A DNA stretch of 64,000 nucleotides from Deltaproteobacteria bacterium. GTDB lineage: Bacteria; Desulfobacterota; DSM-4660; Desulfatiglandales; Desulfatiglandaceae. A program made the position numbers and the translations under genes. The notes under the pieces are model-generated. The model saw only the letters and a program-made list of their open reading frames with translations, made no database searches and had not been told where the DNA came from. The stretch covers positions 1 to 64,000 of the forward strand of contig JAFDIS010000001.1 in NCBI GenBank assembly GCA_019307945.1, written 5' to 3'. Positions 37,311 to 42,848 of this stretch are shown here, in pieces (the first letter of the stretch is position 1; each line of letters begins with the position of its first letter).

Positions 37311-38951
37311 CTATTCCTGGGTGACCCGCATCACCTCACTCATGGTGGTGATGCCTTCACGGACCTTTCGAAGACCATCTTCGAAAAGGGTCGTCATCCC
37401 GTTTTTCACCGCCGCCTCTTTGATGCTCACGGCGTCGGCCCCGGCGGCGAGAAGCCGCCTGCTGTCGTTGTCCATGACCAGAAGCTCAAAGATCCCGGTC
37501 CTTCCCCGATACCCGCTCTGCATGCATTGTTCACACCCTCTGCCGCGGTGAAATACCTCGTCTGGCGGAATTCCGAATTCCCGGAGCGTCTCGGGGTCGG
37601 GCCGGAAAGGCTCCTTGCACGCGGGGCAAACCGTGCGAACAAGACGCTGGGCCATCACCGCCAGGAGGGAAGAGGCGATAAGAAAAGGCTCCACTCCCAT
37701 GTCCACCAGCCGGGTAAGGGCGCCTGCCGCGTCGTTCGTATGCAACGTACTGAACACGAGGTGACCGGTGAGGGACGCCTGGATAGCGATTTCCACCGTC
37801 TCGAGATCCCGAATCTCCCCAACCATGATTATGTCGGGATCGTGTCGCAGGACGGAACGGAGGCCTCTCGCGAATGTGAGTTCCGTTTTTGGGTTGACCT
37901 GAATCTGCCCCACCGACTTCAATTCGTATTCTATGGGGTCTTCAATAGTGATAATATTCTTTTCTCTGGAATTGATCCGATTCAGCGACGCATACAGTGT
38001 GGTGGTCTTTCCGCTTCCCGTCGGTCCGGTCACCAATATGATGCCGCTGTTGCGGTTGATGAGTTTTTCATATATTTTCAGCTTTTCTTGTCCCAGCCCC
38101 ATATCACTCAGGCCCATCAACGACACCGTCTTATCCAGCAGTCGCAGGACGATTCGCTCCCCGAAGGCCATGGGGATCACCGAGACACGAATATCCACAC
38201 TCCGATTCGCCACCTTGATCTTCATGCGGCCATCCTGGGGCACCCGCTTTTCCGCGATGTCCAGGTTGGCCATCACTTTGATCCGGGAAATGATATGCGG
38301 GTGGAATCGCTTGGGAAGCGAATAGATCTCATAGAGTACCCCGTCCAGCCGAAAACGCACTTTTACTTCCTTGAAATAGGGCTCGATGTGCACGTCGCTG
38401 GCCTTGCGCTTGAGGGCCTGGGTGAGAATAATGTTGACCAGCCGGATGATGGGGGCCTCATGGTTGACGTCCATGAGGTCTTCCACCTCCTCCAAATCAC
38501 TCATCACCTGTTCGTCCAACTGGTACTCTTCCAGGTCCTGGACCATCTTTTCGGCATCATCGCTGGACTGATCGAAAAGAATGTTGATGGCCGAATGGAT
38601 CTCTTCGATCGGACTCAATACGAGTCGAACGCCGCTCGCACCCACGTGCCGCGCCAGATCATCCGCCGCCTGGAAATTGAAGGGGTCGTTGATGGCCACT
38701 TTCAAGATCTCATCTTCCGCTTTCAGGGGCACAAGACCCATGCGTTTGAAATAGTGGATGGGGATATCAAAGGTTTCCCTAAGCTCAAGGTCGTTCAGCA
38801 GTTCTCTCTGGATGGGCAATCCGAGCTTCGAGGACAGGGACGCCAAGCGCGCTTCCTCTCCCGCGGGGCTCTCCGGATCAAGGGGGCTGCCGTCTTCTCC
38901 CTGGACGAAATATCCTGCGGTCTCATTCGCTTCCTTCACGCCTTGTCGCAT
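37311..38951 (-). CDS. gspE: Type II secretion ATPase E
   Basis: The 546-residue hexameric ATPase drives pseudopilus assembly. It has an N-terminal GspE domain (about 45–170, with MGLVPLKAEDEILKVAINDPFNF) and then the motor domain with Walker A GPTGSGKTT (about 315). The Walker B/His region is HDPDIIMVGEIRDLETVEIAIQASLTGHLVFSTLHTNDA, and a zinc tetracysteine (CPAC…CEQC) lies near residue 470. It lacks the MshEN-type repeats of the pilus ATPase at 2556, so the two motors appear differently regulated. Confidence 0.94.
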   Translation of the reverse strand: MRQGVKEANETAGYFVQGEDGSPLDPESPAGEEARLASLSSKLGLPIQRELLNDLELRETFDIPIHYFKRMGLVPLKAEDEILKVAINDPFNFQAADDLARHVGASGVRLVLSPIEEIHSAINILFDQSSDDAEKMVQDLEEYQLDEQVMSDLEEVEDLMDVNHEAPIIRLVNIILTQALKRKASDVHIEPYFKEVKVRFRLDGVLYEIYSLPKRFHPHIISRIKVMANLDIAEKRVPQDGRMKIKVANRSVDIRVSVIPMAFGERIVLRLLDKTVSLMGLSDMGLGQEKLKIYEKLINRNSGIILVTGPTGSGKTTTLYASLNRINSREKNIITIEDPIEYELKSVGQIQVNPKTELTFARGLRSVLRHDPDIIMVGEIRDLETVEIAIQASLTGHLVFSTLHTNDAAGALTRLVDMGVEPFLIASSLLAVMAQRLVRTVCPACKEPFRPDPETLREFGIPPDEVFHRGRGCEQCMQSGYRGRTGIFELLVMDNDSRRLLAAGADAVSIKEAAVKNGMTTLFEDGLRKVREGITTMSEVMRVTQE

Positions 38952-38996
38952 TCCCCTTGCCTCCGGAACATCGTGCCCTTGTCGCGCCCGCCAACC

Positions 38997-40991
38997 TTAC
39001 TCCATACCCTTGCGGCGGATATACCCCCGGGCATCCCGGCGGTCCGCCTTTTCCTGCTCCCGGTCAAGCTGCCGTCTCTTCTCTTCGTACAGTGCCCGCC
39101 CCTCCTCCGGGTTTTCAACGATATGGGGGGTGAGAAACACGAGCAGGTTGGTCTTGACGTTCTTGTCGCTCAACTCCTTGAAAAGCCACCCCAGGACTGG
39201 AATGTTTCCCAGGCAAGGGGTCTGGGTCTTGGAGCGATTCATGGTCTTCTCTATCAATCCGCCGATTACCGCCGTCTCATTATCCTTCACCGTAATGGTC
39301 GTTTTGGCGGTACGGAACGTGGTGGTGGGCGCGAGCACCGTTCCACCAAGGGCGGTGCTCTCCACGACGTTTCTCACACTCTCCTCGATCTTGAGCCTCA
39401 CGAAACGGTTTTGGTTGATCTGGGGGGTGACCTTCAGCGTTACTCCCACGTCCTTGTATTCGAAACTCTGGATTGCCCGGTCCGTAGTGCTGGTTCCCTC
39501 GTCGATTCGGGTGACGAAGGGGATGTTTTGTCCCACCTCTATGGTGGCCTCCTCGTTGTCCAGAGTCAGGATCTGAGGGGTGGAAATAATGTTGAAATCA
39601 CTGTCCGAACGCACCGCCTTGATGAAGGCTCCGATGCTGGGGAAGGTGACACCGCCCAGGGAGATGGCCCTTCCCACCACCCCTGCGGCAAAACCGGCCG
39701 GAAGGGACCCGGAGGCCAGGTTTTCAAGCCCGCCGCCTCCGCCGGCGGTGCCGCCCACCCAGACCCCGCCTCTCTTGTCGGTCCCGTATCCGGAATGGTA
39801 TTTGTTTCCCACCCGCCATTCCACACCCAGTTCCAGGGCCCGGTCCGCGGATACTTCCATTATCAAGGCCTCAACGTAGACCATGGTCCTGGGGACATCC
39901 AGTTTCTTGATCACATCTTCCAATATTTCATATTCTTCGGGTTCCGCAATGATCACCAGGGAATTGGTGGCCTTGTCCGCCGAGATCTGCACCTCCTTGG
40001 AGATCAAAGGGGCCTTTCCCTTTTTTCCTTTGGCACCCTTGCCGGGAATCTCGGAAAGGACATTCACAAGATCCTCCGCCACTGCATTTTCCAGTGTATA
40101 GATGTGGATGGTGGCCCTGGGTCTGGTCTCCCTTCGGTCCAGTTTTTCGATCAGCATCTGAACATCCGTCGTGGTCTTCGGATTGGCCAGGACTACGAGG
40201 GAGTTGGTCCTCTCATCGGCGATGATCTTCAGGACATGCTTCCCGAGCCGCTTTTTTCCCTTTTCCTGAAGCACTTCCTTGATCTTGGGTCCCAATTTCT
40301 CGGCCCTTGCATACTCCAGGGTGAAGACACGGATCTCTTCCACGCCCCGCACGTCCAGCTCGTCCACGATGCGGACCAGTCGATGGATATTGGACGACAC
40401 ATCGATGACGATCAGGGTGTTGGTTTCCTGATATGGAATAAGTAAGCCGGTCTTTGCGGTCAATGGTTTGAGCAATTTGGCAAGGTCCGTGGCGGCTGCG
40501 TATTTGAGCGGATAAAGCTGGGTGATCACCTTGTCTTCCACGCCCCGGGGTCCTTTTTCGAAGAAGGTTTCAACCCCCTTGCCCTTGGCCTCCGATGCGC
40601 GAATGATCTTGATCACCTTCCCCGCCTTGACCGTGGTAAAACCATTGACCTCCAAAACAGAGAGAAAGACCCTGTATGCCTCGTCGATGGTGACCTTTTC
40701 AGGCGAGAGGATGGTCACTTGGCCCTTGACGGCCGGATCCACCACAAAATTTCTTCCTGTGATCTCACTGATGAACTTGATCAGAACGCCCAGGTCCACG
40801 TCCTTGAAGTTCATGGTGATGAGTCCGGCTTTGCGCGGAGCTTTTCCTTTCTTCTCCGACGCGTTGAGCTCAGAGGCGAAACCGCCCGCCAAAAGGAAGC
40901 AGAGCAGTAACAGGAAAACGACCCCCCGCCCTTTTCCATAAACCACGGGCCTTTTCCAGATGCCAGAAAGATCCGCTTTTCCCAAGGCCAC
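38997..40991 (-). CDS. gspD: Type II secretion outer-membrane secretin D
   Basis: GspD forms the outer-membrane gate for folded exoproteins. The 664-residue protein has an N-terminal hydrophobic signal (VVFLLLLCFLLAGGFASELNA), an N0 domain (about 57–125, LITMNFKDVDLGVLIKFISEITGRNFVVDP), N1–N3 repeats and the secretin domain (about 385–620), with VESTALGG and ETAVIGGLIEKTMNRSKTQTPCLGNIPVLGWLFK. The tail is charged and helical. The GTG start uses the last base of the gspC stop (TAG), with GGAGG 4–5 bases ahead. A glycine-rich loop (GGTAGGGGGLENLASG) lies near residue 435, as in many GspDs. Confidence 0.94.
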   Translation of the reverse strand: MALGKADLSGIWKRPVVYGKGRGVVFLLLLCFLLAGGFASELNASEKKGKAPRKAGLITMNFKDVDLGVLIKFISEITGRNFVVDPAVKGQVTILSPEKVTIDEAYRVFLSVLEVNGFTTVKAGKVIKIIRASEAKGKGVETFFEKGPRGVEDKVITQLYPLKYAAATDLAKLLKPLTAKTGLLIPYQETNTLIVIDVSSNIHRLVRIVDELDVRGVEEIRVFTLEYARAEKLGPKIKEVLQEKGKKRLGKHVLKIIADERTNSLVVLANPKTTTDVQMLIEKLDRRETRPRATIHIYTLENAVAEDLVNVLSEIPGKGAKGKKGKAPLISKEVQISADKATNSLVIIAEPEEYEILEDVIKKLDVPRTMVYVEALIMEVSADRALELGVEWRVGNKYHSGYGTDKRGGVWVGGTAGGGGGLENLASGSLPAGFAAGVVGRAISLGGVTFPSIGAFIKAVRSDSDFNIISTPQILTLDNEEATIEVGQNIPFVTRIDEGTSTTDRAIQSFEYKDVGVTLKVTPQINQNRFVRLKIEESVRNVVESTALGGTVLAPTTTFRTAKTTITVKDNETAVIGGLIEKTMNRSKTQTPCLGNIPVLGWLFKELSDKNVKTNLLVFLTPHIVENPEEGRALYEEKRRQLDREQEKADRRDARGYIRRKGME

Positions 40992-41626
40992 TATTCCTCC
41001 CTTTTTGAATGGGTCCCATCACGCCTGCCCGAGAATCTATGGATGGATCTCTTTGTCCTGGCGGCCGAAGGTCTCCGGATTATAGGCCTTCGCGGTCTCC
41101 TCCTCGGGGTTATTCGCCTTCTCCTGGGCGCGGGACCCCGCTCATAGGATATCACAAGGGCTTCCTCTCGTCCTTTCAGGGAGAGGATCACGCGATCGGA
41201 AAGAATCTTTGTGATCTTTGCACCACCCACCGTGTCATTCAGATAATAGATATCCTGTTTTCGGGTCTTACCGTCCTGGATTACGGCAAAGGATTCGCTG
41301 TTTTCCCCTATGACCGTACCCTGAAGGCTGAGATTGAGGTCCGTCAGCTTAATCTCTTCCCCCTTTTCCGGTTCCGCCTTTTTGGGCCTGGCCGGCGCAG
41401 GCGCTGTCTTAAAGATGTTCTTTTGTACTATTCCCTGAAAATCCCCGATCCGTTCCGTTCCACGCCGGGGCTTTCGGTTACCGGTTTCCCTCTCCACGCG
41501 TGCAAGCGCACCGGTTTTCTCCCCGTTCCGGCTATCATGCCATGTCAACGCGATATCGACGCCCACGAGCAATATCAATCCAACGATCAGCGCATTGAGC
41601 AGTATGAATATTTTCCTCAAATTCAC
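40991..41626 (-). CDS. gspC: Type II secretion inner-membrane protein C
   Basis: GspC links the platform to GspD. I choose GTG at 41626 (NLRKIFILLNALIVGLILLVGVDIAL follows), as GGGGAGG lies 5 bases upstream; this gives 211 residues. One N-terminal helix is followed by a linker and the homology-region domain (about 60–150, FQGIVQKNIFK…DLNLSLQGTVIGENSESFAVIQDGKTRKQDIYYLNDTV). There is no PDZ domain; the C-terminus is a very basic Arg/Pro tail (RRRRITPRRRPRRPIIRRP). It is the first gene of the T2SS operon. Confidence 0.85.
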   Translation of the reverse strand: MNLRKIFILLNALIVGLILLVGVDIALTWHDSRNGEKTGALARVERETGNRKPRRGTERIGDFQGIVQKNIFKTAPAPARPKKAEPEKGEEIKLTDLNLSLQGTVIGENSESFAVIQDGKTRKQDIYYLNDTVGGAKITKILSDRVILSLKGREEALVISYERGPAPRRRRITPRRRPRRPIIRRPSAARTKRSIHRFSGRRDGTHSKREE

Positions 41627-41991
41627 GCGGACCTCCCCTTTAAAGCGGGAGACGGCCCCGCCAGCCGGTTTCAGCACGGCAAGGATCGCCTTCGACCTGC
41701 GTGTGAGATACTATGATTTCCATGCCCTGTCAAAGTATTTGAAATACGCAAAATTATCGCAGATCTCCGAGCCTGGGAAACTCCTGCCGGTCTCATAACC
41801 CACGCTCTCAGAATTAGGCATCTCCGTCCCCCGTATGGAGGGAAGAAACCTTTGGCCGGATCGAAAAGCCGCCGGCCGACCCCTCGGAAGCTACATCGGG
41901 ACACCACTCGCGGATCCCGCCGGTCCGAATCTCGCCCTTTAAGGGAAAGCCTTCCGGATCAAGAAATACTAGCACCTTGCCGCGCCAACGG

Positions 41992-42097
41992 CAACGGTGA
42001 GCACCCTCGGTCCCCTCAAGGTTCTTAACGCCCCCTCCGCTGTTCAACGGTGAGCACCCTCGGTCCCCTCAAGGTTCTTAACGCCCCCTCCGCTGTT
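41992..42097. repeat. Tandem duplication, 2 × 53 bp
   Basis: Two adjacent copies (41992–42044 and 42045–42097) look identical. Each begins CAACGGTGAGCACCCTCGG and ends CCCTCCGCTGTT. The perfect identity suggests a recent slip or recombination event in non-coding DNA. Confidence 0.85.
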
Positions 42098-42272
42098 AGT
42101 CCCCTACACCAGAATGCCGGAGGAGATCAGGACCTGCTCCTAGAGATATGCAATTTCAGCGCCAAAAGTCTTACCGCTAGTGGAACCATGTCAGTATACA
42201 GCACAAGTGATCCCCCGGATTGAGGCCGCCTGTCCCGGCGTAGCCTTGGCGGAGTCGGAAGATTGTGAAACT

Positions 42273-42470
42273 GGGGACCCACTCGGAGAGTGGGGAGTCC
42301 GAGCCTGCGGGCGAGGACAAATTGGGGACCCGCCCGAAGGGTGGGGAGTCCGAGCCTGCGGGCGAGGACAAACCGGGGACCCGCCCGAAGGGTGGGGAGT
42401 CCGAGCCTGCGGGCGAGGACAAATTGGGGACCCACTCGGAGAGTGGGGAGTCCGAGCGGAGCGCGGACAA
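42273..42470. repeat. Tandem repeat, 4 × 51 bp, each unit with two hairpins
   Basis: Units start with GGGGACCC at 42273, 42324, 42375 and 42426. Hairpin 1 is CCCACTC-GGA-GAGTGGG in units 1 and 4 and CCCGCCC-GAA-GGGTGGG in units 2 and 3, so one base pair changed on both sides and one A-T became a G·T wobble. Hairpin 2 in units 1–3 has outer stem GTCC/GGAC, a GA/GA internal loop, inner stem GCC/GGC and a TGCG loop. Unit 4 has a different sequence that still folds (GTCCG/CGGAC). Pairing is kept while sequence changes, which points to a structured nucleic acid rather than a protein. Confidence 0.88.
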
Positions 42471-42848
42471 AAAGAACCATTTATGGATGCAAACTACTTC
42501 GAAATAGAGCTCTATTTTCAAAGAGCTAACGAGTCCAAGGGTGCAGTGCAGAACACGCACGGCAGATACTCCGGGCCCCCCATGATATGGCATCTTTTTC
42601 CATGGAGTGGAAAAGTTTTACATACATTCGCCCCCCCAGCCTTGAACAAGGAAAGGCGTCTGTATTATAGTCATAGTCATCCTGGTCGCATAATGAAGAG
42701 AGACCGAACGGGAATTTCTTCGGCGCAACCGCCATTGGCGGTCGCGCAAGGGTGATTTTTTGTTCTTGAGCCGAAGTGGAAAAAGACCCCGGCCAAAAGG
42801 GGTGTAGCGCATCCCACGAAACGGGAAACCTGACAGAGGAAGGCCTGC

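Follow-up and report, generated by a model that had tools for sequence, protein, structure and literature searches.

A tandem two-hairpin repeat in a Desulfatiglandaceae genome as a probable BOX-type composite of MITE-type modules and a hairpin cassette

Why four neighbouring units should differ in sequence while keeping the same pair of stem-loops is the question raised by positions 42273-42470 of the 64,000-nucleotide stretch analysed here (the window). A sequence-only reading had proposed a selected structure and named a small RNA and a mobile palindromic repeat among the candidates. Coupling the anatomy of the array with its copies in the same genome and in relatives, we conclude that it is probably a BOX-type composite repeat, dispersed and non-coding, in which MITE-type outer modules are combined with a tandemly amplifying hairpin cassette. 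The repeat is a new family within the known REP/BOX-type kind.

The array consists of four head-to-tail units, each with two hairpins, of 51, 51, 51 and approximately 48 bp, with successive starts 51 bp apart (Table 1), and the repeat proposed from the letters was recovered by Tandem Repeats Finder (period 51, 3.7 copies, 90% matches). Each unit runs in the order GGGGA-hp1-GA-hp2-AAA, where hp1 has a 7-bp stem and a loop of 3 bases, and hp2 a GTCC/GGAC stem, a tandem GA/GA internal loop and then a short inner stem. The two hp1 stem types described previously, CCCACTC/GAGTGGG and CCCGCCC/GGGTGGG, belong to units 1 and 4 and to units 2 and 3, respectively. The hp2 form with a GA/GA loop and TGCG tip holds for units 1-3, and unit 4 is shortened, its hp2 of 19 nt rather than 22 nt being, as stated there, remade with other bases.

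Table 1. Positions of the array, its hairpins and its host element in the window, and of a sister cassette at other loci. R1, a covariance model, was derived from 53 distinct units.
Feature	Position	Strand	Details
Unit 1 (51 bp)	42273..42323	+	GGGGA, hp1, hp2, AAATT; R1 62.5 bits
Unit 1 hp1	42278-42294	+	CCCACTC-GGA-GAGTGGG
Unit 1 hp2	42297-42318	+	GTCC GA GCC TGCG GGC GA GGAC
Unit 2 (51 bp)	42324..42374	+	R1 65.5 bits
Unit 2 hp1	42329-42345	+	CCCGCCC-GAA-GGGTGGG
Unit 2 hp2	42348-42369	+	
Unit 3 (51 bp)	42375..42425	+	Both hairpins same as unit 2; R1 65.5 bits
Unit 3 hairpins	hp1 42380-42396, hp2 42399-42420	+	
Unit 4, short form	42426..42471	+	R1 68.3 bits
Unit 4 hairpins	hp1 42431-42447, hp2 42450-42468	+	hp2 GTCCG A GC GGA GC G CGGAC, 19 nt
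Host element, left part	42202..42272	+	CACAAGTGATCCC...GGCGGAGTCGGAAGATTGTGAAACT; by-eye comparison of L001, L002, L007, L015, L095
Host MITE-type element, right terminal repeat	42477-42496	+	CCATTTATGGATGCAAACTA; family consensus CCATTTATGGATGGAAACTA
Sister cassette	L005 1776-1826; L009 1448-1498; L146 1097-1146; L084; L178		

The covariation claimed for these hairpins is thin within the window. There, hp1 changes at pair 6 (T-A to C-G, a double change) and at pair 4 (A-T to a G·T wobble), which leaves a maximum of one compensatory event. As units 1 and 4 have one form of hp1 and units 2 and 3 have the other, the difference could be a single event. The + strand of the array folds at -116.6 kcal/mol as compared with -85.7 +/- 4.2 for shuffles, although the resulting z of -7.3 is in part inflated, as tandem repeats can pair between units. 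Across the family the claim is well founded: of the cells in an alignment of 53 distinct units, 95.0% are paired, versus 38-49% when the partners are slid by 1-3 columns, and 29 are double-changed, versus 10.1 in shuffles (0/500), counts that compare cells of units related by descent rather than compensatory events placed on a tree. The double changes fall in 5 pairs of the named two-hairpin structure; hp1 pair 5, for example, is C-G in 32 of the 53 units and T-A in 20. The GGAC and GTCC columns proposed to pair across hairpins are nearly invariant, and their alignment is neutral on that pairing. Of 97 distinct three-base hp1 loops, 83 are GNA, and every base occurs at N (GAA 49, GGA 16, GCA 14, GTA 4). 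In DNA mini-hairpins, triloops of the form C(GNA)G have unusual stability. The two-hairpin fold is thus conserved across the family, and with pairing kept through double changes and loops so largely GNA, the idea of a selected structure gains support at that level.

Complementary arms might also be kept without selection, through templated repair of quasi-palindromes during replication, which is known to copy one arm onto the other; the recent and clonal character of the copies would suit such a process. Repair would, however, erase mismatches, and hp1 pair 4 is G·T in 48 of 107 distinct units (A·C in 1), while many hp2 variants retain the tandem GA/GA loop and the loops are largely confined to GNA. 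Given these persistent features, quasi-palindrome repair alone is insufficient, and we regard it as distinctly unlikely to account for the fold. Among the variant forms, hp2 is reduced to GTCC-GAA-GGAC in G215, and in G018 paired bases take the place of the GA/GA loop (GTCCGTA...TACGGAC). Wobbles lie mostly on one strand, with G·T in 71 and A·C in 18 cells among the 107 distinct units, which share ancestry. The + strand was the more stable in 90 of 100 units with RNA energies and in 97 of 100 with DNA energies; since shuffles attribute most of this advantage to base composition, we did not use it as evidence.

A conserved fold with compensatory changes could also belong to a host-encoded structured RNA or mRNA element, such as a small RNA, stabiliser or attenuator, that is only incidentally repeated. 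The units are mostly intergenic, three genomes retain them at an orthologous locus, and the GGAC blocks could pair alternatively with GTCC. Their orientation relative to flanking ORFs is nevertheless random by crude ORF calls (both ORFs on the strand of the unit 18, both on the other strand 21, divergent 14, convergent 13), their presence is patchy, from 0 to at least 90 copies between relatives, and Rfam returned no family match at gathering score. Random orientation and patchy presence make a regulatory RNA very unlikely, and the small RNA suggested from the sequence is left without support. Apparent RNA covariation in tandem repeats can come from mobile DNA and not from regulatory RNA. It is barely conceivable that the array is a coding tandem repeat, even though the unit lengths of 51 and 48 bp are divisible by three, all frames are open, and ORFs of 117-191 aa cross the array in several frames. 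Lacking any stop codon, the unit leaves frames open on both strands, the period in G215 is 40, and what is conserved is the fold and not a reading frame; the coding reading was rejected on the period in G215 and the openness of both strands.

The search for other copies that the sequence-only reading called for turned up many, in the genome and in relatives, with the pairing conserved there, decisively contrary to its refuting outcome of neither further copies nor pairing kept in relatives. The array matched 32 places in its own genome by blastn, and R1 matched at least 69 units in it. Further counts, like this one minimal as draft assemblies break at repeats and as no more than 74 candidates were scored per genome, were at least 90 units in G055, 68 in G074, 51 in G037, and 20 each in G059 and G077. 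Within the order, 22 of 85 genomes gave R1 matches, with none in most others; in a phylum-wide sample of 395 genomes, 12 had units. With 0 to at least 90 units between relatives, the spread has the patchiness of mobile DNA. Phage and plasmid records gave no blastn match to the unit, and viral contigs no match to its core pattern. The exact unit strings were not found in the literature, which is weak evidence of novelty as sequences are rarely printed in running text.

The unit was found in plain intergenic DNA and in at least six unrelated repeat backbones, mostly MITEs, namely TAGTNTCCATCCATAAATGG, GAGACCTTTGAAAAACG, GTAACAGCTCAATA, TAGGAGGCTGTCGGAAAAC, the G009 element and the G215 AATATCGAACAAGG repeat; backbones were compared by eye on the sequences, except for the comparison of empty and filled copies in G037. 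In that genome, empty MITE copies (GGCTCAGATTTT) coexist with filled ones (GGCTCAAACC[unit]ACAAATTTT), which in a longer reading become ...GCGTCAGGCTCAGATTTTAATCC... and ...GCGTCAGGCTCAAACC[unit]ACAAATTTTAATCC..., and in a third rendering empty GGCTCAGATTTTAATCC and filled GGCTCAAACC[unit]ACAAATTTTAATCC. At site A of the source genome, empty copies read GATTGTGCAAAAAGGCCATT and filled copies GATTGTGAAA[CCGGGG...GGACAAA]AAGAGCCATT, or, in another rendering, GATTGTGCAAAAAGGCC and GATTGTGAAA[CCGGGG...GGACAAA]AAGAGCC. Insertion is beside (C/G)AAA, a motif that recurs at the opposite end of the unit; a 4-bp duplication, recombination between repeats or target-specific insertion could each give this arrangement.

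In the window, the left part of the host element is common to other copies in the genome, and its right terminal repeat has 24 genome matches with at most 3 mismatches, as compared with 0 for the reversed control pattern. No clean terminal repeat was recognisable at the left end of this copy and no target duplication was seen beside it; full-length elements elsewhere have the imperfect inverted ends TAGT(T/G)(T/C)CCATCCA.... The MITE backbone TAGTGTCCATCCATAAATGG...CCATTTATGGATGGACACTA, of approximately 146-310 bp, has terminal inverted repeats and no coding capacity, and copies in G037 and G006 are accompanied by target duplications of ATCT, AGCT or AGTT within TANNTA. The 3.4-Mb genome G006 (L076, L078, L269) carries approximately 449 terminal repeats, equal to approximately 220 closely similar 146-bp MITEs, nearly all of them unit-free, and R1 found only 4 units in it. 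The backbone resembles bacterial MITEs in its terminal inverted repeats, short target duplications and lack of coding capacity; it differs in carrying the hairpin unit as an additional cassette, one that also occurs in other repeat families.

The closest known systems are the BOX elements of Streptococcus pneumoniae and S. suis, built as boxA-boxB(n)-boxC, and the S. suis boxAC and boxEF elements, in which one inner module lies between different outer modules (PMC3049150). In both BOX and the present repeat, tandem inner modules vary in number between flanking outer modules, also at fixed loci, one inner module is combined with different outer modules, and elements insert into one another. The parsed set from the source genome comprises 28 arrays, each with 1-5 units, and many of these lie between a left module and the inverted terminal repeat. 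Copy number differs at an intergenic locus common to G023, G059 and G005, with two units in G023 and one in each of the others; the locus in G023 and G059, 93%-identical relatives, has the same two flanking genes. Tandem copies thus arise locally. Units are more similar within an array (0.913) than between arrays (0.852; 0/2000 permutations). The likeness to BOX was drawn on architecture, and the present repeat comes from a different phylum, has two hairpins with GNA loops as its module, and carries its cassette also outside any recognised backbone. Dispersal, empty and filled sites, several backbones and varying tandem number together support the mobile palindromic repeat that had been suggested. 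They document a high-copy BOX-like system in one order of Desulfobacterota, with a conserved two-hairpin fold, and offer a defined case in which to ask how very small hairpin repeats insert into bacterial genomes and multiply there.

We also considered whether the unit is a REP proper, that is, a palindrome mobilised on single-stranded DNA by a RAYT (REP-associated tyrosine transposase). As with REP sequences, the copies are small imperfect hairpins, mostly intergenic, in high and patchy copy number and with many lineage-specific families; non-Watson-Crick features are concentrated on one strand, and the unit adjoins a short (C/G)AAA motif that is repeated at its 3' end. REP sequences, however, fall into the GTAG and CGTC super-families (PMC3733652), and the present unit, which ends in AAAC(C/T)GGGGA and GGACAA, has neither tag at either end; it is a two-hairpin unit in head-to-tail arrays and not in inverted dimers. 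Nor does its distribution follow that of the enzyme: G215 has at least 15 units yet no Y1_Tnp match, the long-Y1-rich genomes G011, G070 and G030 have no units, and the Y1 genes of the source genome and G037 are IS200-type only. Among the Y1 loci searched, no RAYT gene was flanked by the unit, and one locus only had a complete unit nearby, which was degenerate. A REP proper is therefore an unlikely identity for the unit. The ends of IS200/IS605 elements similarly have strand-specific hairpins beside a short target-like motif; in contrast, no transposase was linked to the present unit or its backbone, and the Y1 matches in the source genome, only IS200-type gene fragments at contig ends (L087, L088; G000 C182, C71), have no hairpin units near them.

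For the composite of MITE-type modules and hairpin cassette, we envisage that the TAGT...ACTA-ended backbones would be moved in trans by a transposase, carrying the cassette along. Entry of the cassette into backbones would be at (C/G)AAA sites, through recombination between repeats or through mobilisation of the cassette itself as a folded single strand, and arrays would then lengthen through unequal exchange or replication slippage. The fold may be kept because a cellular or transposon enzyme recognises the single strand, as DNA during mobilisation or as RNA. No autonomous transposon partner was seen among the MITE copies inspected, and in G006 two of five fetched intervals between terminal repeats were read, both of which hold ordinary genes. 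We put forward only tentatively the stronger proposal that the 45-51 bp cassette is itself mobile, inserting at (C/G)AAA as a folded single strand independently of MITEs and multiplying in tandem thereafter; it would then be among the smallest mobile DNA units known. Mobilisation of lagging-strand single-stranded DNA might give a bias relative to GC skew, and the lack of a significant one (14 of 20 units in G000 and 10 of 27 in G037, with weak skew and low power) counts against the composite reading.

Related cassettes were also observed. A sister cassette, GGGGACCC-hp-GGGG(T)CTGAGC...GCGAAGAA, has an identical first hairpin and GA/GA motif with a different outer stem (Table 1), and in G238 a GTCATTGCGAGC...AATCTC repeat contains it. 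At one fixed point of the same MITE, another hairpin cassette, TCCGNCTTCGCNANGGCTACG...GACA, shows presence and absence (L050 and L101 versus L047 and L090), and this holds in two separate families within the order. The nesting of cassettes may be a general phenomenon.

Elsewhere in the window, approximately 100 bp to the left of the element, positions 41992-42097 hold a perfect 53-bp tandem duplication of two identical copies, of which no further copies were found in the genome. Beyond it, three minus-strand ORFs at 37311-41677 were read, from their translations only, as type II secretion genes encoding a GspE-like ATPase, a GspD-like secretin and a GspC-like protein.
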